Source: Candidatus Manganitrophus noduliformans (GTDB lineage: Bacteria; Nitrospirota; Nitrospiria; SBBL01; Manganitrophaceae). Taken from it: a DNA stretch of 52,276 nucleotides. The notes under the pieces are model-generated. The model had not been told where the DNA came from. It saw only the letters and a list, made by a program, of their open reading frames with translations, and searched no databases. Position 1 is the first letter of the stretch, and the number at the start of each line of letters is the position of its first letter. Made by a program: the position numbers and the translations under genes. The stretch is taken from the NCBI RefSeq assembly GCF_012184425.1, contig NZ_VTOW01000011.1:1-52276 (forward strand), read 5' to 3'. Positions 4,575 to 34,193 of this stretch are shown in pieces.

Positions 4575-5981
4575 TCAGAATAAGGGCTCCAGCTTATACT
4601 TATCCATTCGATATCGGAGGGTATCGCGGGTGAGTCCCAGGAGCTTTGCCGCATGAGTGACATTCCATGAGGTCTGCTTCAGCGCCTGGAGAACAAGATC
4701 GCGCTCGACCTCTTCGAGCGAGATTCCCTGCGGCGGGAGGAGAAACCGACCCTCGCTCTCCTTATCTTGGTCCTTGTGTATTTTGACAAGGCCGGGGAGG
4801 AGTGCAAGCTGGTCCGGCTCAATCGTCTCCTGCTTTGAGAGGAGGACGGTCTGCTCGATCATATTTCTCAATTCGCGGACGTTGCCGGGCCATGAATAAT
4901 CGAGGAGCGCCTTTTCGGCTTCCGGACTGAAGCGCATTCCCTGTTTTCCATATCGCCGGGAGTGGATTTTCAAGAAATGGTTGGCGAGAGGGAGGATGTC
5001 GCTCCCTCGGCTGCGGAGCGGAGGAAGCTCCAGGTGGATGATCCGAAGCCGAAAAAAGAGGTCCGGCCGAAATCGTCCTTGGCGGACCGATTCTTCAAGG
5101 GATTGGTTCGTTGCGGTAATGATCCGGACGTCGACCTTCTGTTCTCGAATATTCCCAATGCGGCGGATCACTTTATCCTCGAGTGCTTTGAGCAATTTGG
5201 CCTGGAGGGATATTTCAATCTCCCCGATCTCATCCAAGAAGAGGGTTCCTCCTTCCGCAGCCTGGAAAAGGCCGATCTTCTTCTCCTTTGCGTCTGTGAA
5301 GGCGCCCCGCTCATATCCGAAGAGCTCGGCCTCCAGGAGCTGTGTTGGAATCGAGGCGCAGTTAATTTCGATAAAAGGACCATTTTTTCGCGGGCCGTTG
5401 TAGTGAAGAGCCCGAGCCGCCAGCTCCTTTCCGGTGCCGGTCTCACCGGTGATCAGGACAGCGGGCGGGTCCCCCTCCGTTAATTTCCGCTCCGAATCGA
5501 TAATTTGCTCGATCCGGTTTTTCAATGAACGCATCGGCGGCGACTTCCCAATCAGGGCGGAAAGCGTACTTTCACCGGCCTCTTTTTCCCTGTAATAAGA
5601 GAGGGTCCCTTCCAACTTGGTCTGTCCGACCGCCTTGTCGAGAAGGACCTTGAGTTTTGCGAGGACCAGCGGTTTATTCATAAAGTCATAAGCGCCGGCC
5701 TTCATCGCGTCGACTGCCGTTTCGATGTTCCCATGTGCGGTGATGATGACGATCTTCACCTGCGCGTCACGCTCCTTTATCCGAGCGAGGGCGTCAAGGC
5801 CGCTCATTCCCGGCAGCTGTAGATCGAGTAAGATGACGTCCGGCTTAAACGAATCGAGCTGCTGGAATCCTTCCTCGGCGCTCTGGGCGATTCGGACCTC
5901 GTATCCATAGCGTTCCAGATACGTCTTCATGTTTCTTGCCAGCGTCGTTTCATCTTCAATGATGAGAATGGCATACGACAT
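4575..5981 (-). CDS. NtrC-family sigma-54-dependent response regulator
   Basis: This 468-residue cytoplasmic protein has the classical three-part layout: receiver (about 1-120, phospho-acceptor Asp53 in LLDLQLPG), AAA+ sigma-54 activation domain (Walker A GETGTGKE, Walker B GGTLFLDEIGE) and a Fis-type helix-turn-helix at the C-terminus (NVTHAAKLLGLTRDTLRYRM). The sigma-54 contact loop reads GAFTDA instead of GAFTGA, a tolerated variant in some family members. The kinase gene lies four bases upstream on the same strand, so the two are co-transcribed and are presumably a cognate pair. It is one of two such activators in a window with several sigma-54-type promoters and could drive some of them; that link is inference. 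Confidence 0.93.
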   Translation of the reverse strand: MSYAILIIEDETTLARNMKTYLERYGYEVRIAQSAEEGFQQLDSFKPDVILLDLQLPGMSGLDALARIKERDAQVKIVIITAHGNIETAVDAMKAGAYDFMNKPLVLAKLKVLLDKAVGQTKLEGTLSYYREKEAGESTLSALIGKSPPMRSLKNRIEQIIDSERKLTEGDPPAVLITGETGTGKELAARALHYNGPRKNGPFIEINCASIPTQLLEAELFGYERGAFTDAKEKKIGLFQAAEGGTLFLDEIGEIEISLQAKLLKALEDKVIRRIGNIREQKVDVRIITATNQSLEESVRQGRFRPDLFFRLRIIHLELPPLRSRGSDILPLANHFLKIHSRRYGKQGMRFSPEAEKALLDYSWPGNVRELRNMIEQTVLLSKQETIEPDQLALLPGLVKIHKDQDKESEGRFLLPPQGISLEEVERDLVLQALKQTSWNVTHAAKLLGLTRDTLRYRMDKYKLEPLF

Positions 5982-5985
5982 CGAT

Positions 5986-7332
5986 CTACCCCGCTGATGG
6001 AATGTGTAGTAAAACAGTGGTTCCGATCCCCTCTTTGCTTTCCATCTGCAGCGTCCCGCCGTGCCGCTCGATGATCCGTTTGGCCAGCGAGAGGCCGACC
6101 CCCATTCCCTTCGATTTCGTCGTGTAAAAGGGTTTAAAGATTTTGTCCATCTGAGCTTCCGGAATGCCGCTTCCGGTATCTTTGATCACGATTTCGACGC
6201 GGCCGGCATTTTTCTCGTTTTGGCTGGAGACCCGCAATTCTCCTCCTTCCGGCATGGCATCGAGCGAGTTTGCGATCAGGCTGATTAAGACGTGACGCAT
6301 CAATGCCTCGTCCGCGTGGACGAGGGGAGAGGACGGTTCCAGGGTCAGCGTCGGCTTCACGCTCCGCTTCCTCATCTCACGATCGAGGGAGTCGAGGGTC
6401 GATTGGATCAGATCGTTGATCCGGATGGAGGCGGGATTTCCGCTCGGCGGTTTGGAATAGACGAGCAGCTCCCGAATCCAGTCCTCAATCCGGTCTGTCT
6501 CATGAATGATCTCCTCGGCGGTGGCGCGAAAGGGCGGGTTTTCTTCCAGTGCGACCTCCGCGGAGGAGCGGATAGAGGCGAGCGGATTCCGGATGCCGTG
6601 GGCCACGGCCGAAGCCATCTCTCCGATGGCGGCCATCGTTTTGGATTCAACGAGCTGTTCCTGTTGCCGGCGGATGACCCGGGCCGCACGGCGTACGATC
6701 CAAAAGAGAGAGACATAGAGAAAGATTCCTCCCAGGCCCGCGCTCAACCAGACCAGTTGATTTCCACGCTGAATGGCATGAAACAGCGTAAGCGGAACCT
6801 TGTAGACTTCCACCACGCCGACCACTTTGTTCTCGGAGAGGTTCCAAACCGGGATATATATTTCAGCGAAAAAAGGAACCTCCTGATCGAAAACATGCTC
6901 CGGCTTGGATGATTTCCCGGAAGTCCCGCTCGTGACGGCCAGTTTTCCCGAGAGCGCCGTCTCCAATTGGGGGTTGGGGCTGAAACGATGGCCGATGAAG
7001 CGATCGTCATCCGACCAGAGAATCGATCCGTTGCCGTTGTAAACGTTGGCGCGGACCACCTCCGGCATGGTGGCAATCTGCTTGAAGAAGGCCTCGAAAA
7101 CAGTTTTCGTCTTCCCGGGATCATCCGTCTCGAAATAGCTGCGTGTATTCTCCGCTTGCGCGATGGTCTGGACAAACTCCATCGTCACGACCGCGTCGCG
7201 CTGGAGCATGTTGTGCGTGAGAAAGCTCGAGAGGAGGATGGAGGAGACGGCTGTGATCAGACCGACGGAGAGGAAGCTCAGAAGAGCAAACCAGCGAAGG
7301 AGGTTAAAGGGTTGTTTCTCTTCAATCGGCAT
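5986..7332 (-). CDS. Membrane sensor histidine kinase, NtrB/ZraS-like
   Basis: This 448-residue kinase has two membrane helices (about 15-38 and 195-213) around a periplasmic sensor of about 150 residues. The dimerisation/phosphotransfer domain carries His245 in SAVAHGIRNPLAS, and the ATP-binding domain shows the N box (LIANSLDAMPEGGE), the G1 box (DTGSGIP) and a G2 region (KGMGVGLSLAKRI). The layout and the downstream NtrC-type partner resemble ZraS/HydH-type systems that sense periplasmic conditions; the stimulus cannot be read. An IS1202-like element sits about 100 bp upstream of its start, so the original promoter may have been separated or altered. Confidence 0.92.
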   Translation of the reverse strand: MPIEEKQPFNLLRWFALLSFLSVGLITAVSSILLSSFLTHNMLQRDAVVTMEFVQTIAQAENTRSYFETDDPGKTKTVFEAFFKQIATMPEVVRANVYNGNGSILWSDDDRFIGHRFSPNPQLETALSGKLAVTSGTSGKSSKPEHVFDQEVPFFAEIYIPVWNLSENKVVGVVEVYKVPLTLFHAIQRGNQLVWLSAGLGGIFLYVSLFWIVRRAARVIRRQQEQLVESKTMAAIGEMASAVAHGIRNPLASIRSSAEVALEENPPFRATAEEIIHETDRIEDWIRELLVYSKPPSGNPASIRINDLIQSTLDSLDREMRKRSVKPTLTLEPSSPLVHADEALMRHVLISLIANSLDAMPEGGELRVSSQNEKNAGRVEIVIKDTGSGIPEAQMDKIFKPFYTTKSKGMGVGLSLAKRIIERHGGTLQMESKEGIGTTVLLHIPSAG

Positions 7333-7415: not shown

Positions 7416-7429
7416 ATGGATGCCTCCGG
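7416..7429 (+). repeat. Target-site duplication, left copy (14 bp)
   Basis: ATGGATGCCTCCGG is directly repeated at 8851-8864 on the other side of the IS1202-like element. A perfect 14-bp match abutting both ends of a complete insertion sequence is best explained as the duplicated target. Confidence 0.85.
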
Positions 7430-8850
7430 CTTTGTCAAGCCAAAATAGAAATGTCCTCTTTCTACCAAAATAGAAATGTCCGGTTTTAGGGGTTTGGAGC
7501 GAGTTCTCTTTTTCTGTTTCGACCAAACTGAAAATTCCTCCACGGATGATCTGCTACGGGCTTGCTGTTCTTGAGTGTTTGGTTGCGCTCAGAAGGCGGC
7601 TGCACTTTCAGTGGCCGACTCAGAATCTCTGTGTAAGGTAGACTCCTTCCTCGGTGACTCAAATGCAACGAGCCGTCCAACCACTCTTCAACGCAGATCT
7701 TCTCTGCCCGAATATTCTTCTGAATTTGATACAGCTTGCCTTCATAAGAGATTGTCCAATCCTTCCTCAATACCCGCTCGCTCTTAAGGCAGAGAATTCG
7801 ATCTAGCTCTCTTGCAGGAGGAGCCGCCCGATGCAGGTCCCCCGGCTTTAGCGGGACAACCCTAAAGCGTCTGTTATAGATCGGCAGATATTTCTCTAAG
7901 AATCGGTTTGCTTCTTCGATGCTTGCAATCTTCTCAAGGCGCATCTCCTTGACCAGTCGGTCCTGAAAGGTGCGAAAGAGTCGCTCGATTCTCCCTTTGG
8001 CTTGGGGGGAGTCCGCATGGATGACTTCCACCGCTAATTCCTGGAGGCTTCTCTGAAACTGGCTCATCGGCTTGCTGTCTAAGAGTTGTTGCTCTTCGCT
8101 CTGCTTTGCAGTCGATTTGTAGGTCGAATGCTTGTCGATATAGACTTCCAAGGGAACCCCATCGCGCTGGATGTAGCGCCGAAGGCTGTCCATGGCGGGG
8201 TAGGTGCCTTCGTACTCGTAAAAACGAGCATACACGCGGCTGGTCGCATCGTCGATGTAGGCCATCAGTACACACCAAGGCCCTCTGCCCTCCAGCCAGT
8301 CGTGATGGGAGCCATCCATCTGCAACAACTCCCCCAACTGCCCTCGCCTCTGTCGCCAGCGCCGATGCGGCCGCTTCTTCCGGCTCGGATACGCAATCCC
8401 TTCCGCCTTCAGCCACAGCCGAAGTGTCTCATCGCTGAGAGGAATGGCATTGCGCTCCGAGAGCTTCTCCGCCGCCCGCGTCGGCCCAAACCCCGCATAC
8501 TCTTGCTGGTAGATCTTCAGCACTTGCCGCTTACTCTTCTCGTCCGTCCGCCGGTTCGAGGGCCTGCCTCGGCTGCGATGACACAGCCCTCGCTCTCCTT
8601 CCTCTAATAGCCGCCGCTTAAGTCGGCGAATCTGTCGATCGGTTAACCCCAAATGTGCTGCCGCTTGCTTCTGGGTCAGCCCCTTCTCGATGACCTGCTC
8701 GATAATATGCAGCCGCCTTGCTTCGCTGCTCCTCATCACCAAAATGTCCTCCAAAGCTCCTCCGTCTCCTCTCAAAATGAAGGAAGCAGTGTAGCTTATA
8801 TAAGGACATTTCTATTTTGGTAAAAGCGGACATTATCACTTTTGGATTAC
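7430..8850 (-). mobile_element. Complete IS1202/ISNCY-like insertion sequence
   Basis: About 1.42 kb, with the transposase on the minus strand. The ends carry related inverted sequences: GTCAAGCCAAAATAGAAATG on the left (from 7434) and, on the reverse strand of the right end, GTAATCCAAAAGTGATAATG. Each end holds two spaced copies of a GGACATT/AATGTCC motif (left copies within 7439-7480), likely transposase-binding sites. ATGGATGCCTCCGG is present at 7416-7429 and again at 8851-8864, a 14-bp target-site duplication, which fits the long duplications known in this family. The exact termini are uncertain by a few bases. The intact open frame and perfect duplication suggest recent insertion. Confidence 0.85.
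7486..8736 (-). CDS. ISNCY/IS1202-family transposase
   Basis: The 416-residue protein cuts and joins the element's ends. The N-terminus holds a helix-turn-helix (LTQKQAAAHLGLTDRQIRRL) followed by the HRSRGRPSNR segment typical of this family. A retroviral-integrase-type catalytic core comes next, with candidate acidic residues in LLQMDGSHHDW, YIDDATSR and GRIERLFRTF, and then a C-terminal beta-rich region. The frame opens at 8775, but ATG 8736 (MRSSEARRLHI) matches the strongly supported start of the related element at the left window edge. The gene is intact, so the element may still be active. Confidence 0.9.
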   Translation of the reverse strand: MRSSEARRLHIIEQVIEKGLTQKQAAAHLGLTDRQIRRLKRRLLEEGERGLCHRSRGRPSNRRTDEKSKRQVLKIYQQEYAGFGPTRAAEKLSERNAIPLSDETLRLWLKAEGIAYPSRKKRPHRRWRQRRGQLGELLQMDGSHHDWLEGRGPWCVLMAYIDDATSRVYARFYEYEGTYPAMDSLRRYIQRDGVPLEVYIDKHSTYKSTAKQSEEQQLLDSKPMSQFQRSLQELAVEVIHADSPQAKGRIERLFRTFQDRLVKEMRLEKIASIEEANRFLEKYLPIYNRRFRVVPLKPGDLHRAAPPARELDRILCLKSERVLRKDWTISYEGKLYQIQKNIRAEKICVEEWLDGSLHLSHRGRSLPYTEILSRPLKVQPPSERNQTLKNSKPVADHPWRNFQFGRNRKRELAPNP

Positions 8851-9141: not shown

Positions 9142-9983
9142 TCAGAAGTCGGGGAAGCGATCCCCCGCCCCGGTGTTCAGCCCGGGTGTAACGAAGGCTT
9201 GATCGCGCGGGAAGTCGCTTCCGGTAAAGCCGTTCCCGCTTCTGAAGTTTTCTCCTCCACCGTATTCAAACGGGATCATCAAACCGAGGTGAAATGGGGT
9301 TCCCGACGCGGGACCAATCTCGCCTCCTTGGTCAGGATCATCCCGGTTATCATATCGACCGGACCGGTGAATCGGTCCACATCGGAGTCTGCGATGGAGG
9401 TGAATGAGAGGGCTGAATCGGTTTCGGTAAAGGCAATCGTTAAGCCGCTGCCTGTATTGATCTCCTGAAGAATTTGCTGATCGATCAATACGCTCATTGT
9501 CGAGGGGTCCATCGCAAAGGTCACATGCCCGGCGGCATGGAAGGGATCTCCCGGCACGAAACCCAGCCCGAGATCGACCGTCGATGTGACGGTTCCGGCC
9601 GGCGTGTTTGGGCCTTCAAAACCTTGAGGCGCGGTCTGTGGATCGGCCCCTCCGAATGTGCTGCAGGGAATTCCGCAGCCGAAGTCCGCCTCGGACCAGA
9701 CAGTCTTGAAGGGGTTGCCGGTGAACGATCCCGGCATCCCCGGCGCTTTGACATAATTGCCGAGGGTACAGGTCATCACGCCGTCTACGCCGTGGCTGGC
9801 GTCGCAATCGGGCAGACCGGCCGATTGCATCACCGTTTGAAGTTGAGAGGGGCTGATGTCAAACCCGAACGTCCTCGATCCAACGGTAGTGCTGGCGGTA
9901 TTGATCTGGATGTTCTGACCGAAGGCCACCCCGGTTAATAGGCAAAAAAACAACATTCCTCCGCTTAAAAACCGCAGTCTCAT
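9142..9983 (-). pseudogene. Secreted protein of unknown function, frameshifted near its 3' end
   Basis: The open frame 9983-9279 encodes 234 residues with a clear signal peptide (MRLRFLSGGMLFFCLLTGVAFG, cleavage near residue 22) and a secreted region rich in Gly, Thr and Asp with four Cys. Near 9330-9340 the coding pattern moves to another frame: in that frame the sequence reads DPDQGGEIGPASGTPFHLGL followed by about 40 more plausible residues and a stop at 9144-9142. In the nominal frame the end turns into an Arg/Pro-rich tail, as expected after a frameshift. I do not recognise the family. A possible sigma-54 promoter lies at 10225-10240. The frameshift could be genuine decay or a sequencing error. 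Confidence 0.5.
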
Positions 9984-10224: not shown

Positions 10225-10240
10225 AGCAAAAAGTGCGCCT
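10225..10240 (-). promoter_or_regulatory. Putative sigma-54 promoter (minus strand)
   Basis: Reads AGGCGCACTTTTTGCT on the minus strand: GG, ten bases, GC, with TTGC at -12. It points to the secreted-protein gene starting at 9983 and would leave a leader of about 230 bases, unusually long, which lowers confidence. It lies about 160 bp from the palindrome at 10401. Confidence 0.45.
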
Positions 10241-10350: not shown

Positions 10351-10368
10351 TTTGGGGGAATCGCCCAA
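10351..10368 (+). promoter_or_regulatory. Half-site of the GGGGG...CCC regulatory motif
   Basis: TTTGGGGGAATCGCCCAA resembles one arm of the palindrome at 32616-32655 (TTTGGGGGATTTGCCCCA) and lies 33 bp before the full palindrome at 10401. It is probably a weaker additional site for the same DNA-binding protein. Confidence 0.4.
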
Positions 10369-10400: not shown

Positions 10401-10438
10401 GTGGGGGAAATGCCCCATGGTTGGGGTATTTCCCCCAC
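10401..10438. promoter_or_regulatory. 38-bp palindromic site, probable sigma-54 activator binding site
   Basis: Arms GTGGGGGAAATGCCCC and GGGGTATTTCCCCCAC are inverted repeats with one mismatch around a short centre (ATGGTT). Each arm is itself an imperfect palindrome. The site lies 96 bp upstream of the plus-strand sigma-54-like promoter, a usual distance for an enhancer. A near twin with the same spacing is at 32616-32655. A transcription terminator is an alternative, but the matched twin between two divergent promoters argues for protein binding. Confidence 0.6.
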
Positions 10439-10533
10439 TTTATTATTCCACACGCTTCTCTTCGGCGGGGATCTTCATATTGAATTTTAGTTTTTTCAAT
10501 GGGAAAAAAGGTTGCATGAGTGGGGTAGATGGT

Positions 10534-10549
10534 TGGCATACACTTTGCG
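10534..10549 (+). promoter_or_regulatory. Putative sigma-54 promoter
   Basis: TGGCATACACTTTGCG has GG at 10535-10536 and GC at 10547-10548 separated by ten bases, with TGGCA and TTGC matching the consensus. Transcription would begin near 10560, about 14 bases before the ATG at 10574. Confidence 0.7.
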
Positions 10550-10573
10550 TTTAAGAATCGCCGGGGATTGTCT

Positions 10574-11117
10574 ATGATCAAAAAGGCGGTTTGGACCATT
10601 CTGTTTCTGACCCTCTCCAATCACAGTTTGGGGGCAAGTTCAGACGACTTCTTTTCGAACACGACAAGCGTGGATCGTCTTTCGACCGGAGCGGACGGTT
10701 CCTGTCCGGGATGTCCCGGTTTCAATCCGGAACGGGTTATCGGTCACGCAAGGACCGATCCGGATGGAACTGGCCCGATCCGGATCGAGACAGAGCACGA
10801 CGCGCTTACCTCTGAGCAGATCAATCCAATCGCTACTGTTGACAACGACGGGGTTTCGGTCCGATTTGGGGACTCACGAATGATCCCGTTCCCTCCGGTT
10901 CGAGCAATCTCCTCATCCCCGGATTCCTCCATGACCCTGCGGAGGAGCGGACGCTCCGCTGTCTGTCGCGGGAGACGTGCGGATTTAATAACGATCAAGG
11001 TATCATCTCTCACTATCCTCCACCGGTTTCGTCACGATCGACAGCGTCACCGGAGAGGGCTGTCTTGCCGGCGTTCAGGTAGATCCCTTTCATGCAAATG
11101 GGCAGAGCTGCCGGTAG
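10574..11117 (+). pseudogene. Secreted protein of unknown function, with apparent frameshifts
   Basis: ATG 10574 opens a signal peptide (MIKKAVWTILFLTLSNHSLGA) followed by Asp/Thr-rich sequence with a CPGCPG motif. After about 10865 the nominal frame becomes Arg/Ser-rich and implausible. A second frame carries on with GLTNDPVPSGSSNLLIPGFL, and from about 11000 a third reads GFVTIDSVTGEGCLAGVQVD and then DPFHANGQSCR to a stop at 11115-11117. Both shifts go in the same direction. The most economical reading is one gene broken by two indels. No family recognised. It starts 25 bp after a good sigma-54-like promoter, so it may once have been strongly regulated; a neighbouring secreted gene is broken too. 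Confidence 0.5.
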
Positions 11118-11228
11118 GCCGAGGGGCGGCGGCGACGAGGCCGCACGGCCGGGTGGACGCGATCGGGGATCTGGCCTGAGGAAAACAGAGGGTTGACTCA
11201 AGACCGTTTGGGCAGACCCCCCCCGTTA

Positions 11229-11244
11229 TGGGGGATTTGCCCCA
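11229..11244 (+). promoter_or_regulatory. Orphan half-site of the palindromic motif
   Basis: TGGGGGATTTGCCCCA is identical to bases 32618-32633 of the perfect palindrome. It lies 60 bp left of the IS630 insertion. On the other side of that element is a receiver-protein gene, so the site may once have controlled that gene. A small hairpin (TTGCCTT and AAGGCAA arms) follows at about 11249-11270. Confidence 0.5.
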
Positions 11245-11338
11245 GCACTTGCCTTCAGGCGTCAAGGCAAATAGAATGTTTCACCGTATTTTGGCGGATA
11301 GATAGTTACTGAGCCGACCACCAAATAGTGCGTAGTTT

Positions 11339-12372
11339 TTAGGATGCATAACGAACATGATCCTCGCAAAACAGGTTTCTGATAATTTGCGGTTGCTTCT
11401 GCCGTCGATGCAGATGGCTGCGCACGGTGGCCATGAGTTCTGTCCGGTTGGTCGGTCGGCTTTTGCCGAGCCCATTGGTCTTGACGTCCTGGTTCAGCAA
11501 TTCGTCGAGATTCAGTTCCGGGCAGTAGCCCGGCATCCGTATGAGCCTCAGTCGTGGTTGGTGTTGGTTTACAAAGCGCTTGGCCACGCCGGATTTGTGC
11601 ACCGGATGTCCGTCCACGATCAGATAGATCCTGCCGTCGAACTGCTTGAGCAACCGCTTCATGAACTCCACAAAAACGGACGCCTTGAACTTGCCCTGAA
11701 ACACCATAAAGGCCAAGGCCCCCTTGTTGGTAATCGCCGAGATCATATTGCAGCCAAAGCGGCTCCCGGTGGCCCGTACCACGGGGGTTCTTCCTACCGG
11801 CGCATAGCTTGTACCTGTGACATGGTCGCTACGCAATCCCATCTCATCACCCCAGTAGATCACGGCCTTTTCCCGCTTGGCCTGTCGGGCAATCGCCGGA
11901 TATTCCTGCTTCAACCAGCGCGCGATGGCCGTATCGGTCCTCTCGTAGGCGCGTCGCACCGGTTTCTGGGGACTGAGGCCCCAGGCCTGAAAGTAGCGTC
12001 CCACAGTGACCGGCGAGACCTCGACCCCATATTCCCGCGCAATCAGGCTCGCCACCGCCCCGCGCGTCCACAGATAGAACGGCAGCTTCAATTGATCGGG
12101 CATCTTGCCTACGATCAACAAGCGGATGTGCTCGGAGCGCCTTGCGCTCAGGCGCTTCTCCCCCTGACGCCGTCCCCGGCGCTTGAGCTTAAGCGCCCGC
12201 AGCCCGCCTTCCCGTCAAGCCGCATCCATTTGCTCACCGCCCGCAGACTTGCTCCAAACGTGCGCGCCGCCTCGCTCTGCACCGTCCCACGGCGGACCGC
12301 CTGCACAACTTGCCGGCGCAACAGATGCAGCGCCGAGGACTCCAATTTCCTGGCATCATTTCGTTTGTGCAT
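11339..12372 (-). pseudogene. IS630-family transposase, split into two frames
   Basis: The N-terminal frame (12372-12148) encodes a helix-turn-helix segment (RGTVQSEAARTFGASLRAVSKW). The C-terminal frame (stop at 11339) encodes the DDE domain, with VIYWGDEMG, YLIVDGHPVHKS and PGYCPELNLDELLNQ giving the catalytic Asp, Asp and Glu. Near 12200-12215 a minus-one shift would join RLDGK to GGLRALKLKRRGRRQG and restore one protein of about 340 residues. Some insertion sequences use programmed frameshifting, but I see no classical slippery heptamer, so an inactivating mutation is equally possible. Confidence 0.75.
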
Positions 12373-12378
12373 GCCAGG

Positions 12379-12384
12379 TATAAT
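12379..12384 (+). promoter_or_regulatory. Possible outward -10 box in the IS630 right end
   Basis: A perfect TATAAT lies inside the IS630 end, pointing right, 53 bp before the ATG of the receiver gene at 12437. No good -35 hexamer is visible 16-18 bases upstream (TCATTT is the nearest), so this is a weak prediction. Confidence 0.3.
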
Positions 12385-12436
12385 AGCACACTACGCACTA
12401 TTTAGTGAACTGATCAGTAAGTATAGGAGGAACATC

Positions 12437-12832
12437 ATGTTGAAAAACCGGGTTTTGATTGTCGAAGATGAACCGCTCCTTCGGAAGAACATCGCCATCA
12501 GCCTGCGCCGGGAGGGTTATGAAGTGATGGAAGCGAACAACGGGGCGGAAGCATGGAAGATATTCAATGTCACTTCAATTGATCTTCTTATTCTGGATAT
12601 CGGTCTGCCCGATTATGACGGCATCAATTTGCTGAGGGAGATTCGAGCGATTCACCCTCAACTTCCGGCGATCGTTATGACGGCCCGGGATGCTCCTGAG
12701 GCGGAAAACAGGGCGATCGAATCGGGGGCATCGGTTTTCTTCACGAAGCCGATTGTTCTTCGGGTACTGAAAGCGGAGATTCGGAACATTCAGGAAAACA
12801 GATATTGCGAACAAACAAGCAATAAACAGTAA
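12437..12832 (+). CDS. Single-domain response regulator (receiver only)
   Basis: The 131-residue protein is a complete CheY-like receiver: acidic pocket in VEDE (9-12), phospho-acceptor Asp54 (LILDIGLP), conserved Thr in MTARD and Lys104 (FFTKPI). There is no output domain, so it probably acts by protein contact or as a phosphate relay. ATG 12437 is well supported by AGGAGG six bases upstream; the frame is open much further left, but only through the insertion sequence. The IS630 element ends 15 bp before the ATG, so present expression must come from the element or from read-through. A kinase and NtrC-type regulator follow 200 bp downstream. Confidence 0.9.
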   Translation: MLKNRVLIVEDEPLLRKNIAISLRREGYEVMEANNGAEAWKIFNVTSIDLLILDIGLPDYDGINLLREIRAIHPQLPAIVMTARDAPEAENRAIESGASVFFTKPIVLRVLKAEIRNIQENRYCEQTSNKQ

Positions 12833-13039
12833 TTAAGGAGTCGGAATCTGAAATCGGGAAAACGGCGGCGGCGCCTGTGAAAACCGTGGGGGGCGTCAAC
12901 CATCACGTACTCCGCTTCATGACATCGTTGGCGACAAAGATTGCCTTTACTCGAATCCCGTTCCGGTCGATCGCAATGACTACGCATTCGCCATCCTTTC
13001 GATTTTCAAGCCGAGGTTCTGTGTACACGGATATCAAAT

Positions 13040-15058
13040 ATGACTCCTGAAACGCGACAGCCTCCCCGATCCGGTTCGATCAACCATCCGATTTTCCGCA
13101 GCCGCCTTTTCTTTAAGTTCATCATCCCCTATATCTTCTTGATCGTGACAGTGTTCTCTCTGAGCGGATGGCTCTTCTTCTCTTCCGCGAGCGAGGCGCT
13201 CGACGCGGAATTGTCCCGGCGGCTCGTGGGGGTCGCCGATCTGGTCGCGCGGACGGTCAATCCCGCTTTCCTGATGAGAATTGAGCCTGGGGACGAAGAC
13301 ACCTCGCTCTACCGTCTCATCCTGGAAGATCTTGGAAAGATTCGGGAAGCGACCCGTGTCAAAGATATTCATCTCTTCGACCGTGAGAACAGAGTGATCG
13401 TTGATTCAGACGGAACGCAGGCGATTGGCGAGGAGAATCTTTTCCTTCAGATTGACTCCTATGAGCTCGACCAGGTATGGAGCGGCCGGACGGTCTCCTC
13501 GGTTCTTTATCGAGGACGGGATGGCCGATTTTACAAGGCTGGCTATGCCCCTTTGAAGGACAGCCAAGAGGAAATTATCGCGGGGGTCGGGGTTGAGGTG
13601 GGGGTTGATTTCATGCAGATTGTGGGCCGGGTCCGCCGCCAATTCATCGGGATCACCCTGGCCAGCGGGGGATGCATTCTCCTGATTAGTTTTCTCCTCT
13701 CCCGTTCGATGATCCGTCCGATTCAGATTCTGACGGCCGCTACGGAGCAGCTCGGAAATGAGGGGAACTACCCGCAAGTCGATTTAAAGCGAAGAGACGA
13801 ACTGGGCGATCTCGGAAGACATTTTAATCGGATGATCGCTCAGATTCGGACGAAAGATGCGCTGCTTCGCCGAATGTACGATGAAGAGAGAGCCCGAGCC
13901 GATATACTCGAGGGATACAGTCAAACGCTTTTGAAAAGCATCCCGAGCGGGGTCTTGGGGGTGAATCTGAAAGGAGAGATCACCTCATGCAACCCGGCTG
14001 CCGAGAACATCCTTGGCCTCTCTTCATCGGCCCTTCTGGATCGACCGGTTCAGGGGGCGCTCGGCGCCTGTTCTCCCTTGGAGAAAATCATCATGTCCAC
14101 GGTCACGACCGGAAGCGAGACGGCCTGGGAAGAATTCCCGATCGAAGACCCTTCCGGGGGAAAACGCTGGATCGGTGCGATGGCTTCGCCGATTAGAGAC
14201 CAGAGAGGAAGAGAGATCGGCGCCACTGCAGTTTTTGCCGATCTCACGGAGGTAAAAAATCTGCAGGATGAGATCGCGTTGAAGCGACAGATGGCGCTTC
14301 TCGGCGAGCTTTCCGCGGGGATGGCGCATGAGATCCGAAACCCGCTTGCCGCCATTCAAGCCCTCGGTGAGCTGCTCAGTCGCAGAGTGAAGGGAATGGC
14401 ATACCTCCGGGATGAAAAAGAAAAGATCGATTCTGCGGAGGGGGATCTTGAAGAACTGAGTCGGGACTTGGTCGCCGAAATCAGGCATCTGAACCGGTTC
14501 GTCACCGAATTTCTGACCTATGCGCGAATGCCGCTGTTCCGTTTTGAGAAAACCGACCTCCCGGAGATCATCGATGCGGCCCTCTCACTAGCCGCTCCCT
14601 CGGGAACACCGGAACGGATCGTCGTCGAGAAGAGGTTTCCGGAGCATTTTCCCGCAGTGTCCGTCGATCCGCTCGAATTTCGGCGTGTCCTTCTCAATTT
14701 GATCCAGAACGCGCTCCAAGCGATAGGGACGGAAGGAAAGCTTCGGATCGAAGCCGAGATCGTCCCCCCTCATCTCGTCCTCCGAATCTCCGACACGGGG
14801 CCCGGGATTCCCGCCGCGCAGCGGGACAAAATCTTTCGTCCTTTTTTCACAACCAAGCGGGGAGGGACGGGGCTTGGTCTGGCGATTTCAGAGCGGATTA
14901 TCCGTGAACACGGAGGGAGTCTGACTTTTGAAACAAAAGAAGGGAAAGGGACGACCTTCATCGTTCAGATCCGTCTGGAGGAATCAGAAAGAGAGACGAC
15001 TCTGGAGACGGATCGGTCGCAGGGGAACCGGCTCTTCCCCGGCCAGACTCCGGGATGA
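13040..15058 (+). CDS. Membrane sensor histidine kinase (sensor-HAMP-PAS-HisKA-HATPase)
   Basis: This 672-residue kinase has membrane helices at about 25-48 and 205-228 enclosing a Cache-like periplasmic sensor (DIHLFDRENRVIVDSDG), then HAMP, a PAS domain (about 300-420) and a kinase core with His430 (GMAHEIRNPLAAIQ), the N box NLIQNALQAIG, DTGPGIP and GTGLGLAISERI. The Asp/Glu-flanked loop near residues 475-485 lies inside the dimerisation domain. The NtrC-type regulator begins 33 bp downstream, so they are almost certainly a cognate pair. No clear ribosome-binding site precedes ATG 13040, and the true start could be slightly downstream. Confidence 0.9.
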   Translation: MTPETRQPPRSGSINHPIFRSRLFFKFIIPYIFLIVTVFSLSGWLFFSSASEALDAELSRRLVGVADLVARTVNPAFLMRIEPGDEDTSLYRLILEDLGKIREATRVKDIHLFDRENRVIVDSDGTQAIGEENLFLQIDSYELDQVWSGRTVSSVLYRGRDGRFYKAGYAPLKDSQEEIIAGVGVEVGVDFMQIVGRVRRQFIGITLASGGCILLISFLLSRSMIRPIQILTAATEQLGNEGNYPQVDLKRRDELGDLGRHFNRMIAQIRTKDALLRRMYDEERARADILEGYSQTLLKSIPSGVLGVNLKGEITSCNPAAENILGLSSSALLDRPVQGALGACSPLEKIIMSTVTTGSETAWEEFPIEDPSGGKRWIGAMASPIRDQRGREIGATAVFADLTEVKNLQDEIALKRQMALLGELSAGMAHEIRNPLAAIQALGELLSRRVKGMAYLRDEKEKIDSAEGDLEELSRDLVAEIRHLNRFVTEFLTYARMPLFRFEKTDLPEIIDAALSLAAPSGTPERIVVEKRFPEHFPAVSVDPLEFRRVLLNLIQNALQAIGTEGKLRIEAEIVPPHLVLRISDTGPGIPAAQRDKIFRPFFTTKRGGTGLGLAISERIIREHGGSLTFETKEGKGTTFIVQIRLEESERETTLETDRSQGNRLFPGQTPG

Positions 15059-15091
15059 AGCCGGCGCTGGATTCCATGAAGGAGTAAAACG

Positions 15092-16447
15092 ATGATTCGG
15101 ATGTTGATTGCGGAAGACAAAGAGGCGATGCGGCGATCCTTGGTCCGTCTCTTCTCTGAGAAAGGCTACGAAGTGATCGAGGCCGGGAGCGGAGCGGAGG
15201 CGCTGGAGCGCTTCAATGAGATGGAGATCGATCTGGTCATTACCGATCTTCAGATGGGAGAGATCGACGGCCTCCAGCTCCTTCGTGAAGTCAAAAAACG
15301 AGCGCCGCAGACCCCGGTCCTGATGGTCACGGCGTTCGGAACGGTGGAAACCGCTGTGGAGGCGATGCGGCAAGGGGCGTTTGATTATCTCCTCAAACCC
15401 TTTTCGCTGACCGAGATTGAGGCGCGGGTGGAGAAGGCCCTGGAGCAAAGAAGGCTTCTGACGGAAAACCGCTACCTGAGGGAAACGCTCGATCATGCCG
15501 CCGGGCGGATGATCGGCCGCTCGGAGAAGATGCAGCAGGTCTACCGCCTCATTGAAAAGGTGGCCCCGCACACCTCCCCTGTACTGATCCTTGGGGAGAC
15601 AGGAACGGGAAAAGAGATGGTCGCGAGAGAGATTCATCAGAGGGGCGCTCGGAAAGACGGCCCCTTCATCGCGGTCAATTGCGGGGCGATTCCGGAAAAT
15701 CTACTGGAAAGTGAGCTCTTCGGATATGAGAAAGGGGCCTTCACGGGGGCTTCGGCTCAAAAGAAAGGACGGCTGGAACTGGCCGAGGGAGGAACTCTTT
15801 TTCTGGATGAGATCGGGGAGCTTCCTCTTTCCCTTCAGGTCAAGCTCCTGCGGTTTTTACAGGAGCTGGAAATCCAGCGGGTGGGGGGGACAAAAACCAT
15901 CCGGGTCGATGTCCGGTTGATTGCCGCGACGAACCGCGATTTAAAGAGGGAAATCGAGGAGCATCGCTTCAGAGAGGACTTCTATTATCGAATTCGGGTG
16001 ATTGAAATCCATCTTCCTTCCCTGAAAGAACGGCATGGAGATATACCGGAGTTGTCGGCCTACTTCTTGCAAAAAATCAGTCGTGAGATTCATAAGAACC
16101 TCGGGATGCTCCCGGAGGTCCTTGATCTCTTGACCCTCTACCGTTGGCCCGGGAATGTGCGGGAATTGGAAAACGTCATCGAACGGGCCGCCGTTCTTGC
16201 AGAGGGGGAGATCATCAAGGCGGGCGACCTTCCTCCGGAGCTCCAACTGGTTTCAACCCCGGCGGGATCAAACGGGGAATCGAACGAGCTGGGGCTGACC
16301 GAACGACTGGAGATGCTGGAGCGTGAAATTATCAAGAAGACCCTGGATGAGACGACGGGAAATCAGACACAAGCGGCCAGGATGCTCCGTGTGCACCGCA
16401 GTTCGCTCCAGTACAAAATGCGCAAGTATGGGCTATTGGATCAGTGA
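15092..16447 (+). CDS. NtrC-family sigma-54-dependent response regulator
   Basis: This 451-residue activator has a receiver domain (Asp52 in VITDLQMGEIDG), an AAA+ domain (Walker A GETGTGKE, intact GAFTGA loop, Walker B GGTLFLDEIGE) and a Fis-type helix-turn-helix (NQTQAARMLRVHRSSLQYKM). AAGGAG seven bases before ATG 15092 fixes the start. It is encoded right after its likely kinase and overlaps the next gene by 20 bp. With its canonical GAFTGA it is the best candidate in the window to activate the sigma-54-like promoters near palindromic sites; no sequence evidence yet assigns the sites to it. Confidence 0.95.
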   Translation: MIRMLIAEDKEAMRRSLVRLFSEKGYEVIEAGSGAEALERFNEMEIDLVITDLQMGEIDGLQLLREVKKRAPQTPVLMVTAFGTVETAVEAMRQGAFDYLLKPFSLTEIEARVEKALEQRRLLTENRYLRETLDHAAGRMIGRSEKMQQVYRLIEKVAPHTSPVLILGETGTGKEMVAREIHQRGARKDGPFIAVNCGAIPENLLESELFGYEKGAFTGASAQKKGRLELAEGGTLFLDEIGELPLSLQVKLLRFLQELEIQRVGGTKTIRVDVRLIAATNRDLKREIEEHRFREDFYYRIRVIEIHLPSLKERHGDIPELSAYFLQKISREIHKNLGMLPEVLDLLTLYRWPGNVRELENVIERAAVLAEGEIIKAGDLPPELQLVSTPAGSNGESNELGLTERLEMLEREIIKKTLDETTGNQTQAARMLRVHRSSLQYKMRKYGLLDQ

Positions 16448-31294: not shown

Positions 31295-32461
31295 TTAAAA
31301 AAAATAGGCGAGCGAAGCGGCGTAGAGTGTCTCTTTAAATTCCACTGCGGAATCGGAGGAGTTTCTCCAGAGATATTCGGAACGGGCGCGGATCAGGATC
31401 TTGGGGAAAGGCTGGTAACGCAGTCCGATGAGAAGAAGATGGTTGGTATCGCGCCGTCCGGCGTGGATCGGCTCGACATCTTCGGGGAGGTCGGTGGTGA
31501 AGACCTTTTGCCGGACGCGATACCGCAGCCGTACCATCAGCGGGGAGGCGAACCGATAACTGATCTGGACCCCCCCCGCCTGGGCCCGGTAGGAGGCATT
31601 GTCCTGTCGGACGGCTTCTCCATCGATCGGCACGGCGCCCCCCTTTGCCGATCCGGCTTCGACAGCATAATCGATCGATAAACGCCAGGAGAGAGCCGGT
31701 CGGAAGGTCTGTGGAAGGCCGAGTCTGACGAGGTCGGTGTCCTTCGCGTCGAAGTCGGCGTTGTAATCGAGGCGGTTATAGGTGACGGAGAGGCCGGTGT
31801 TCCACCAGGAAGTGAGATCGCGGTCAATCTGCGCGGTGAATCCAGCCGATCTTAATTCGATGGTCGGGAGGGTCGGGTCCTCTTTGTCAAGGGAGGCCGG
31901 CGGCGAGAATTGCAGGAAAAGACTCCCATAGTATTTTTCTCCAAATGGGCGCTCCCCGCCGACTTCGAAGAACGAGTAATTGAGCTCCTGGATTTGGAGA
32001 TACCGATTCAGGACGGCCGCCCCGCTCCATCGGGTCTTCCGCGGCCGGTAGGCTAAAGAGAAAGCCGACTCCCAGATCAGATCCGATTCAATTTTGCTCT
32101 TCGCCTGAAACACGTTGCTGTCGTAGATGAGGCCGGTCTCTATTTCTCCCGTCCATGCGTGTTTTTTCTTCTCTGTCTCTTTGGAGGTGGAGCCTTCTTC
32201 AGCAAGCGCGGGGACTGCCAGAAGGATCAGACTGAGCGCCGCCGCGAGTCCGAATGAGCGGCCCCTTCTTCCTTGCCCCGGCCGGTGGGGAAAGGACCGT
32301 TTGAAAGATCCGGCGGGATTCTCTTCGTCGGGAAATTGTTTGAACCGTTCTTTCGCCGTCACCCTGAGACCCCCATTCTCCTTATCCTCCGTCCCGGTAT
32401 CGGTTCCGGCCATTGGGCCGCCAGCCTTAATGTTTCGGTCTCTTTCTTCGATCTTCGCCAC
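31295..32461 (-). CDS. Predicted outer-membrane beta-barrel protein
   Basis: This 388-residue protein starts at GTG 32461, with GGAG eight bases upstream and a sigma-54-like promoter placed to start transcription about 20 bases before it. A long charged N-terminal stretch precedes a signal-peptide-like segment (FGLAAALSLILLAVPALAEE, near residues 70-90). The mature part (about 300 residues) has amphipathic strands rich in Tyr, Arg and Ser and ends YAASLAYFF, the C-terminal Phe typical of outer-membrane barrels. The length before the signal segment is odd; initiation at a later start, for instance ATG 32413, would shorten it. Function unknown; possibly a porin or secretion barrel. Confidence 0.75.
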   Translation of the reverse strand: MAKIEERDRNIKAGGPMAGTDTGTEDKENGGLRVTAKERFKQFPDEENPAGSFKRSFPHRPGQGRRGRSFGLAAALSLILLAVPALAEEGSTSKETEKKKHAWTGEIETGLIYDSNVFQAKSKIESDLIWESAFSLAYRPRKTRWSGAAVLNRYLQIQELNYSFFEVGGERPFGEKYYGSLFLQFSPPASLDKEDPTLPTIELRSAGFTAQIDRDLTSWWNTGLSVTYNRLDYNADFDAKDTDLVRLGLPQTFRPALSWRLSIDYAVEAGSAKGGAVPIDGEAVRQDNASYRAQAGGVQISYRFASPLMVRLRYRVRQKVFTTDLPEDVEPIHAGRRDTNHLLLIGLRYQPFPKILIRARSEYLWRNSSDSAVEFKETLYAASLAYFF

Positions 32462-32491: not shown

Positions 32492-32507
32492 CGCAATTGC
32501 TATGCCA
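32492..32507 (-). promoter_or_regulatory. Putative sigma-54 promoter (minus strand)
   Basis: Reads TGGCATAGCAATTGCG on the minus strand, with the GG and GC elements ten bases apart. It drives the barrel gene starting at GTG 32461, with a leader of about 20 bases. Confidence 0.72.
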
Positions 32508-32615: not shown

Positions 32616-32655
32616 TTTGGGGGATTTGCCCCATGACTGGGGCAAATCCCCCAAA
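32616..32655. promoter_or_regulatory. Perfect 40-bp palindrome, probable activator binding site
   Basis: The arms TTTGGGGGATTTGCCCCA and TGGGGCAAATCCCCCAAA are exact reverse complements around TGAC. It lies about 110 bp behind the minus-strand promoter and about 280 bp before the plus-strand promoter, suitable enhancer distances for both. The half-site recurs at 10351, 10401 (both arms) and 11229, so it is a conserved DNA-binding motif. Confidence 0.68.
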
Positions 32656-32931: not shown

Positions 32932-32947
32932 CGGCATGCTGTTTGCT
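32932..32947 (+). promoter_or_regulatory. Putative sigma-54 promoter
   Basis: CGGCATGCTGTTTGCT has GG at 32933-32934 and GC at 32945-32946 with ten bases between, and a perfect TTGCT. It would start transcription near 32958, about 117 bases before the lipoprotein ATG. Confidence 0.65.
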
Positions 32948-33074: not shown

Positions 33075-34193
33075 ATGAAAATCGCATTGAAGTTTTTTGG
33101 TGTCGCTATGATCGGGCTCGCCGTCGCCGCCTGCGGCGGTGGAGGGAGTGACGACGGCGGATCTGACGCGATCGCGCCGACATTGGGGATCACGTCGGTT
33201 CAGAAGGTGGGGGCGACGGCAATACCGAATGGGAATGTGTCGTCGAAACCCGTTTTTGCGTCGAATTTCCTGAGAAAGGGATGGAGCCTAGCCCCCCGGC
33301 AGGCCTTTGCTCAGCCGGCTTCTTGCCTTTCGGACGCCCCGACCTCTTTTGATGTCTCCGGCGGCAAGATCTGGGTAAAACAGGCATACGCCATTCTAGA
33401 TGAAGTCGAATTCAACCGGGAGCCGTCGACGACGCCGAGCCCGGAGTTTGGCCCCTTCGCGCTTGATCTGACGAACAGTGACGACACCGTCGGGGAGGCG
33501 ATCACGGTTGACGTTCCCGAGGGGAACTATAGCGGCGTCAAGTATCGGATCAAACGGGTCGACGATACTAATGACGATGGAACGCCGATGGTTATCCTGA
33601 ACGTGACCGATTCGGCTGCCTTCAAGAATCTCATTATGAATACTGATGTCAAGCGCCGGCCGAGCGTCTGGATCGAGGGGGTGATCGGCGTCGGATCAGA
33701 GGCCGCGGGATTCTCTTCTTGTAAAGATTTCACTTTCGTCACCGATCACCGCTGGGAGGTGACCGTTCCCTTTCAGAGTTCGTCCGCCGGATCGACGGCG
33801 CTTGACGCCGTTCTTCTCTTCGATCTGTCGGGAGCATTCAACGCGGCACTGGCCGGATCGAGCGCGGAGGCCCTGTCGGCAGAGGTGGGACAGTGCTCCT
33901 CTGAGGTCGTCGATCGGGGCGAGTGCATGGGACCGGTGTATCTAGACGGTCGGACCAAGGATGAGCGTCACGGAACGCCTCTTGCTAAAGTCATTACCGG
34001 CGAGTTTCCCAAGCATACGGATGTCTTCGTGCAGTCCGTCACCGCCGCGAGGGGCTTTGACGACAATCCATCTATCTCCGACATGGTGGACAGCACCGCT
34101 CCCGCGGGAACGACCGTCATCGACGACAGCGCCGTGCGGGTGAGCGGCGACGACAACCCGTCTGTTTCGGACCTTGCCGAGACACCCGGGTAA
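33075..34193 (+). CDS. Secreted lipoprotein of unknown function
   Basis: This 372-residue protein has a lipobox (GLAVAACGGGG, Cys about residue 20) and a Gly/Asp-rich linker. A block CLSDAPTSFDVSGGKIWVKQ and following strands resemble, weakly, DUF4382-type lipoprotein domains. The C-terminus has two related units, FDDNPSISDMVD and GDDNPSVSDLAE. AAGGAG seven bases before the ATG supports the start. A sigma-54-like promoter lies upstream and a strong GC-rich hairpin follows the stop, so it looks monocistronic. Function unknown. Confidence 0.82.
   Translation: MKIALKFFGVAMIGLAVAACGGGGSDDGGSDAIAPTLGITSVQKVGATAIPNGNVSSKPVFASNFLRKGWSLAPRQAFAQPASCLSDAPTSFDVSGGKIWVKQAYAILDEVEFNREPSTTPSPEFGPFALDLTNSDDTVGEAITVDVPEGNYSGVKYRIKRVDDTNDDGTPMVILNVTDSAAFKNLIMNTDVKRRPSVWIEGVIGVGSEAAGFSSCKDFTFVTDHRWEVTVPFQSSSAGSTALDAVLLFDLSGAFNAALAGSSAEALSAEVGQCSSEVVDRGECMGPVYLDGRTKDERHGTPLAKVITGEFPKHTDVFVQSVTAARGFDDNPSISDMVDSTAPAGTTVIDDSAVRVSGDDNPSVSDLAETPG

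Follow-up and report, generated by a model that had tools for sequence, protein, structure and literature searches.

Tandem 16-bp dyads as a predicted sigma-54 enhancer-binding-protein operator at regulator and exopolysaccharide operons of Candidatus Manganitrophus noduliformans

NtrC-type proteins bind as dimers to dyads and act at a distance on sigma-54 RNA polymerase. The site of the PrsK/PrsR system of PEP-CTERM exopolysaccharide bacteria is a TTTACA-ending 17-nt motif, ~63 nt ahead of the promoter and confined to Proteobacteria (Haft 2006, PMC1569441). The 52,276-nt contig analysed here (the window; C11 in whole-genome coordinates) resembles PrsK/PrsR in its NtrC-type response regulator and kinase, adjoining TPR protein and exopolysaccharide neighbourhood, and its site, like that of PrsR, lies upstream of a -24/-12 sigma-54 box and is sometimes repeated (PMC1569441). 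However, the site is a TGGGG-N6-CCCCA dyad (TGGGGSAWWTSCCCCA), ~95–310 bp from the box, and does not match the PrsR site. Likewise, the two NtrC-type regulators encoded in the window, at 15092 and 4575, reach 427.2 and 387.4 bits against PrsR (TIGR02915), whose cut-off is 502.6, and the TPR protein scores 78 against 312. The order of receiver, AAA+ and Fis-type HTH domains, and the paired dyads upstream of sigma-54 promoters, are shared with the NtrC/AtoC/ZraR class. AtoC is the best model for 15092, yet gives 485.8 bits against a cut-off of 714, and the tandem spacing of ~20 bp seen here is unlike that of NtrC, AtoC or ZraR sites. We know of no NtrC, AtoC or ZraR site that this operator resembles in sequence. 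The type of switch is well known; the operator and regulon appear to be undescribed, as judged from a limited search of the open-access literature. The main text of a Desulfovibrio regulator survey contains no GGGG or CCCC string.

The palindrome at 32616–32655 is predicted to be a UAS for a sigma-54 enhancer-binding protein, most likely that encoded at 15092–16447, activating sigma-54 promoters on both sides (probability about 0.87). An enhancer-binding-protein operator had been proposed in the original prediction, and this reading is supported, at the level of sequence, by the motif, its intergenic tandem copies, outward-facing sigma-54 promoters and conservation. Two palindromic sites of this kind lie in the window:

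32616–32655, no strand: operator B, tandem 16-bp dyads at 32618–32633 and 32638–32653, centres 20 bp apart
10401–10438, no strand: operator twin, dyads at 10402–10417 and 10422–10437, 20 bp apart, with a weak extra dyad at 10353–10368

The first is, as had been claimed, a perfect 40-bp palindrome centred on TGAC, with 18-nt arms (32616–32633 and 32638–32655; 100% complementary) separated by these 4 nt. A perfect 18-bp arm pair with fixed spacing has an expectation of ~1e-6 per 52 kb (4^-18 × 52,276). The internal symmetry attributed to the arms is also real, the half-unit TGGGGGATTTGCCCCA being itself a dyad. For the twin, the predicted coordinates and CCCCA-4-TGGGG core spacing hold but the predicted equality of arm length does not, as its arms (10401–10417 and 10422–10438, again 4 nt apart) are of 17 rather than 18 nt and 94% complementary, with one mismatch. 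Within the 52,276-nt window the half-unit occurs 10 times at ≤3 mismatches (0.61 expected; 0 of 100 shuffles reach 10), including a further exact copy at 11229–11244 and the weak copy at 10353–10368. Comparison of all copies identifies the 16-bp dyad TGGGGSAWWTSCCCCA, present in two or three tandem copies with centres 19–22 bp apart (~two helical turns), as the conserved unit; the operator reading of the palindrome stands, but the unit is the dyad with its tandem spacing and not the 40-bp palindrome.

Pattern searches of the whole genome, used here in place of a PWM scan of the 16-bp unit, located tandem dyad pairs at C11:10402, C11:32618, C11:11209, C1:1868790, C3:676247 and C2:976231, and a seventh at C1:1860845 when the spacer was allowed one extra base; a reversed control pattern gave no pairs in this genome. 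Because a full PWM scan was replaced in this way, weaker regulon members may be missed. Operator B has orthologous counterparts in this genome's own C1 copy, in G003 and G002, and twice in G005, and three dyads in a row are found in the autoregulatory regions of the C1 copy, G005 and G003. The long-range palindrome is not kept at orthologous and paralogous sites (TGGGAGTTTTCACCCA-GTGC-TGGGGCAAATGCCCCA; C3:676247), while the dyads and their 19–22 bp spacing are: the arms at C1:1868790 lack complementarity, and at C3:676247 both units point in the same direction, as a direct repeat. Tandem sites with the same outward sigma-54 pattern are also carried by Ca. Manganitrophus plasmid records CP114557, CP114560 and CP114554, the first and last of which are near-copies of the G003 cluster; many of the sites are orthologous copies and hence not independent.

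The genome-wide search for copies had been suggested by the original prediction, which named terminator-like copies inside or after genes, with no link to sigma-54, as the outcome that would count against it. No such picture emerged: every tandem copy in this genome and its Candidatus Manganitrophus (Nitrospirota) relatives occupies an intergenic position, with outward-facing sigma-54 promoters beside nearly all of them. Outside pairs, isolated matches to GGGNAWWTNCCC or TGGGGNATTTGCCCCA (2 mismatches) all lie in open frames of at least 157 codons. Several copies per genome, in a cluster that is duplicated and also found on circular plasmid records, might suggest a mobile or repetitive palindromic element of REP/MITE type. 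This is very improbable, as the copies differ in arm composition and in dyad number (2–3), lie at promoter-specific distances and share no common flanking element outside the cluster duplication, and no random insertions with target duplications were seen.

Sigma-54 promoter sequences flank both palindromes:

32492–32507, minus strand: strong sigma-54 -24/-12 promoter TGGCATAGCAATTGCG for the leftward gene, conserved in alignment
32932–32947, plus strand: strong sigma-54 -24/-12 promoter CGGCATGCTGTTTGCT serving the lipoprotein/EPS operon to the right
10534–10549, plus strand: strong sigma-54 promoter TGGCATACACTTTGCG, ~25 bp before the ATG at 10574 (secreted protein)
10225–10240, minus strand: weak sigma-54-like site AGGCGCACTTTTTGCT, towards the secreted protein 9279–9983

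Divergent sigma-54-like promoters had been claimed for both places; this is so at 32616–32655, where both are strong, and at the twin for the rightward promoter, but its leftward counterpart (10225–10240) is weak. A CGGCATGCTGTTTGCT-type box ~300 bp from the operator is also found in the C1 copy, G005, G003 and G002. Counting boxes above one fixed sigma-54 score within 450 bp, the six pairs tested in this genome have eight outward and no inward boxes against 0.3 expected; when six pairs were placed at random 20,000 times in the analysed DNA of this genome, eight was never reached. The weak pair at C2:976231 likewise has one outward box. In G005, G003 and G002, all pairs are accompanied by one or more outward boxes and by no inward box. 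Unpaired core matches served as an internal control, and only one of them had an outward box above threshold, which was marginal. Measured from the centre of the operator to where the -12 element ends, the distances form groups of ~129–144 bp, ~300 bp (312 in the window) and 94–110 bp. In an alignment of region A (the autoregulatory region) between the C1 copy and G005, the operator is 71% identical and the sigma-54 boxes 88%, compared with 48% for the remainder of the interval. As in a sigma-54 UAS, the site is dyad-symmetric, repeated and located upstream of -24/-12 promoters, without overlapping them.

Dyads of 16 bp are also typical of many one-component regulators, and in principle a dimeric regulator with no connection to sigma-54, whether repressor or activator, could use these sites and share the intergenic regions by coincidence. 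We consider this improbable, given that the outward boxes are systematic and at the recurring distances above, and that the sites precede two enhancer-binding-protein operons and are upstream of the promoters without covering them. Least credible, together with the repetitive element, is a role as a transcription terminator, an attenuator or a hairpin in RNA. An RNA copy of a perfect palindrome would fold, but only the dyads are conserved, and the palindrome, being upstream of both sigma-54 promoters, falls outside both predicted transcripts. A scan of 32616–32655, between the divergent promoters, found no T-tract, terminator call or Rfam match.

Candidate binders for the sigma-54 UAS, and the kinases and single-domain response regulator beside them, are encoded in the same window:

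15092–16447, plus strand: NtrC-type enhancer-binding response regulator with receiver (PF00072), AAA+ sigma-54 domain (PF00158) and Fis-type HTH (PF02954, HTH_8)
13040–15058, plus strand: sensor histidine kinase (HAMP, PAS, HisKA, HATPase)
12437–12832, plus strand: single-domain response regulator heading the RR-HK-EBP operon
4575–5981, minus strand: second NtrC-type enhancer-binding response regulator, an alternative or additional candidate binder
5986–7332, minus strand: histidine kinase upstream of 4575, whose promoter in intact copies diverges from operator A

An enhancer-binding protein with receiver, AAA+ and HTH_8 domains, as expected for a sigma-54 UAS, is thus encoded nearby, and 15092–16447 is the likeliest predicted binder. 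Its orthologues (88–92%) in the C1 copy, G005 (two), G003 and G002 are all near pairs, and searched against plasmid sequences (tblastn) it matches Ca. Manganitrophus sp. at 89–92%. G004 has neither a 15092 orthologue nor a credible pair; in G001 (72% complete) the orthologue is on a 4-kb contig and no pair was found. Beyond the genus, 15092 orthologues (G014 at 70%; seven others at 55–61%) are not accompanied by such pairs or by a convincing alternative dyad, implying that the site has drifted or that another protein binds it; the recognition helix of the G014 orthologue is nearly identical.

The mechanism would be the same if the binder were the second regulator, 4575–5981, or if both regulators shared the sites, a reading that we regard as less likely but worth serious consideration. 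With its kinase, 4575 lies in the same intact clusters, divergent from operator A, so that adjacency alone cannot separate it from 15092; a site-bearing gene for a small membrane protein adjoins 4575 orthologues, and a genus-restricted site is equally compatible with either protein. Orthologues of 4575 are present in this genome, G005 and G003, and absent from G002 (91% complete) and G001 at E≤1e-120. G002 nevertheless has a 15092 orthologue and a well-formed pair with two sigma-54 boxes, which favours 15092 as the binder.

From this arrangement we infer the binder, its binding, the number of dimers per dyad, looping and the kinase pairing as follows. Each 16-bp dyad TGGGGSAWWTSCCCCA would accept one dimer through the C-terminal Fis-type HTH of the 15092 regulator, and two or three dyads ~two helical turns apart would align the dimers next to one another along one face of the helix. 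Once the regulator is phosphorylated, probably by the kinase at 13040, its AAA+ domains would assemble at the operator and, by DNA looping, contact sigma-54 RNA polymerase at -24/-12 promoters ~95–310 bp away on both sides, opening them. The effect is presumably activation rather than repression, with a presumed role in the polysaccharide matrix. Under this control would come both kinase/regulator operons (autoregulation), the diverging operons for an outer-membrane or secreted protein and for a lipoprotein with exopolysaccharide genes, and membrane proteins of ~80 aa. Operator, candidate activator and predicted regulon together offer a testable regulatory code for a manganese-oxidising group that is hard to manipulate.

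Predicted targets fall into three types of region. In region A a divergent kinase (5986 type) faces the response regulator-kinase-regulator operon (12437–16447 type). In region B the gene for a beta-barrel-like or small secreted protein diverges from an exopolysaccharide operon led by a lipoprotein gene, represented in the window by:

31295–32461, minus strand: outer-membrane beta-barrel-like protein, a weak EpsL match far under the curated cut-off
33075–34193, plus strand: lipoprotein heading an operon of glycosyltransferases, a heparinase-type protein and APH-fold kinases

Like EpsL of exosortase-linked EPS clusters, 31295–32461 is beta-barrel-like and at an EPS locus, but at 20 bits against a cut-off of 275 it is not a member. 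Exosortase (TIGR02602) has no match within the window and one elsewhere in this genome, at C3:172503. Alginate-export porins and an ABC exporter are also encoded in the window. The predicted sigma-54 circuit would be linked to the polysaccharide coat of this manganese oxidiser. Frame 10529–11179, which follows the twin operator, has a secreted-protein start and an arginine-rich end, and so looks like a frameshifted or decayed gene. In G014 (L078 8017–8653) the gene for a secreted repeat protein (GVKLRGDGTVDDTQ), which resembles region B's small secreted protein, has a perfect sigma-54 box ahead of it but lacks a TGGGG dyad.

Region C is defined by a membrane protein family of ~80 aa with members also elsewhere in the genome:

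L071 218–580, L074 2076–2318, L072 8367–8597, L005 1044–1310 and L158 1489–1720: ~80-aa membrane proteins, several of them recognisably related, all preceded by a sigma-54 box and by an operator pair or dyad

Outside the cluster, the sites at C2:976231, C3:676247 and C14 are each ahead of members or look-alikes of this family, although the resemblance of the C3 protein was judged by eye alone, and protein search did not return it. The C14 paralogue, preceded by a degenerate dyad pair and a sigma-54 box, provides an independent check, since it was located by protein search and the dyads and box were seen only later. This unannotated family would be the main dispersed target of the predicted circuit. 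Tentatively, a single operator type might serve two autoregulated kinase/enhancer-binding-protein pairs, which together would switch the export of exopolysaccharide and the dispersed ~80-aa membrane proteins, as a movable module on chromosome and plasmids that is possibly tied to formation of a manganese-oxide-bearing matrix; we hold this fuller picture to be doubtful.

The autoregulatory region of the window is broken by two insertion sequences, while the other copy of the circuit is intact:

11209–11244, no strand: remnant of ancestral autoregulatory operator A, with one intact dyad (11229–11244) and a 29-bp match to the G005 operator
11323–12403, no strand: insertion sequence with 13-bp terminal inverted repeats AAATAGTGCGTAG / CTACGCACTATTT; transposase frame 11339–12121, minus strand
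7427–8826 (ends approximate), no strand: insertion sequence; transposase 7486–8775, minus strand, integrase core

The element at 11323–12403, which we take to be IS630-like, lies between the operator remnant and the response regulator gene, ending ~30 bp before the latter, and that at 7427–8826 cuts the region upstream of the kinase gene (7332), starting ~95 bp before it. Kinase gene and operator remnant (11229) are 3.9 kb apart in the window, whereas kinase, operator and response regulator lie within ~0.5 kb in the intact C1 copy (C1:1857000–1876000). No sigma-54 box is left beside 11209–11244, and the native sigma-54 boxes of both regulator operons were not found in the window copy. The insertion sequences have severed this copy of the circuit from its own operator.

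Across 395 genomes of the phylum, only four weak pairs were found besides those of this genome; the two with a checked promoter neighbourhood were inside open frames and had no sigma-54 boxes. Scanning 84,980 species for exact pairs yielded 30 stretches, all from unrelated organisms; many are tandem repeats or fall inside open frames. Exact TGGGG-N6-CCCCA pairs with a sigma-54-like box ~110–170 bp downstream were noted in L118 (2209–2244; Verrucomicrobiales), where an enhancer-binding-protein gene follows the pair, L121 (7129–7165; Desulfuromonadales) and L104 (3412–3447; betaproteobacterial), possibly reflecting convergent use of a similar site. Two circular records of Ca. Manganitrophus sp. 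GAC2, L150 (CP114557; 36,951 bp) and L151 (CP114560; 34,282 bp), consist almost only of the regulator and exopolysaccharide cluster, with no annotated replication gene; they are either circular modules that have been excised or artefacts that arose when repeated clusters were assembled.
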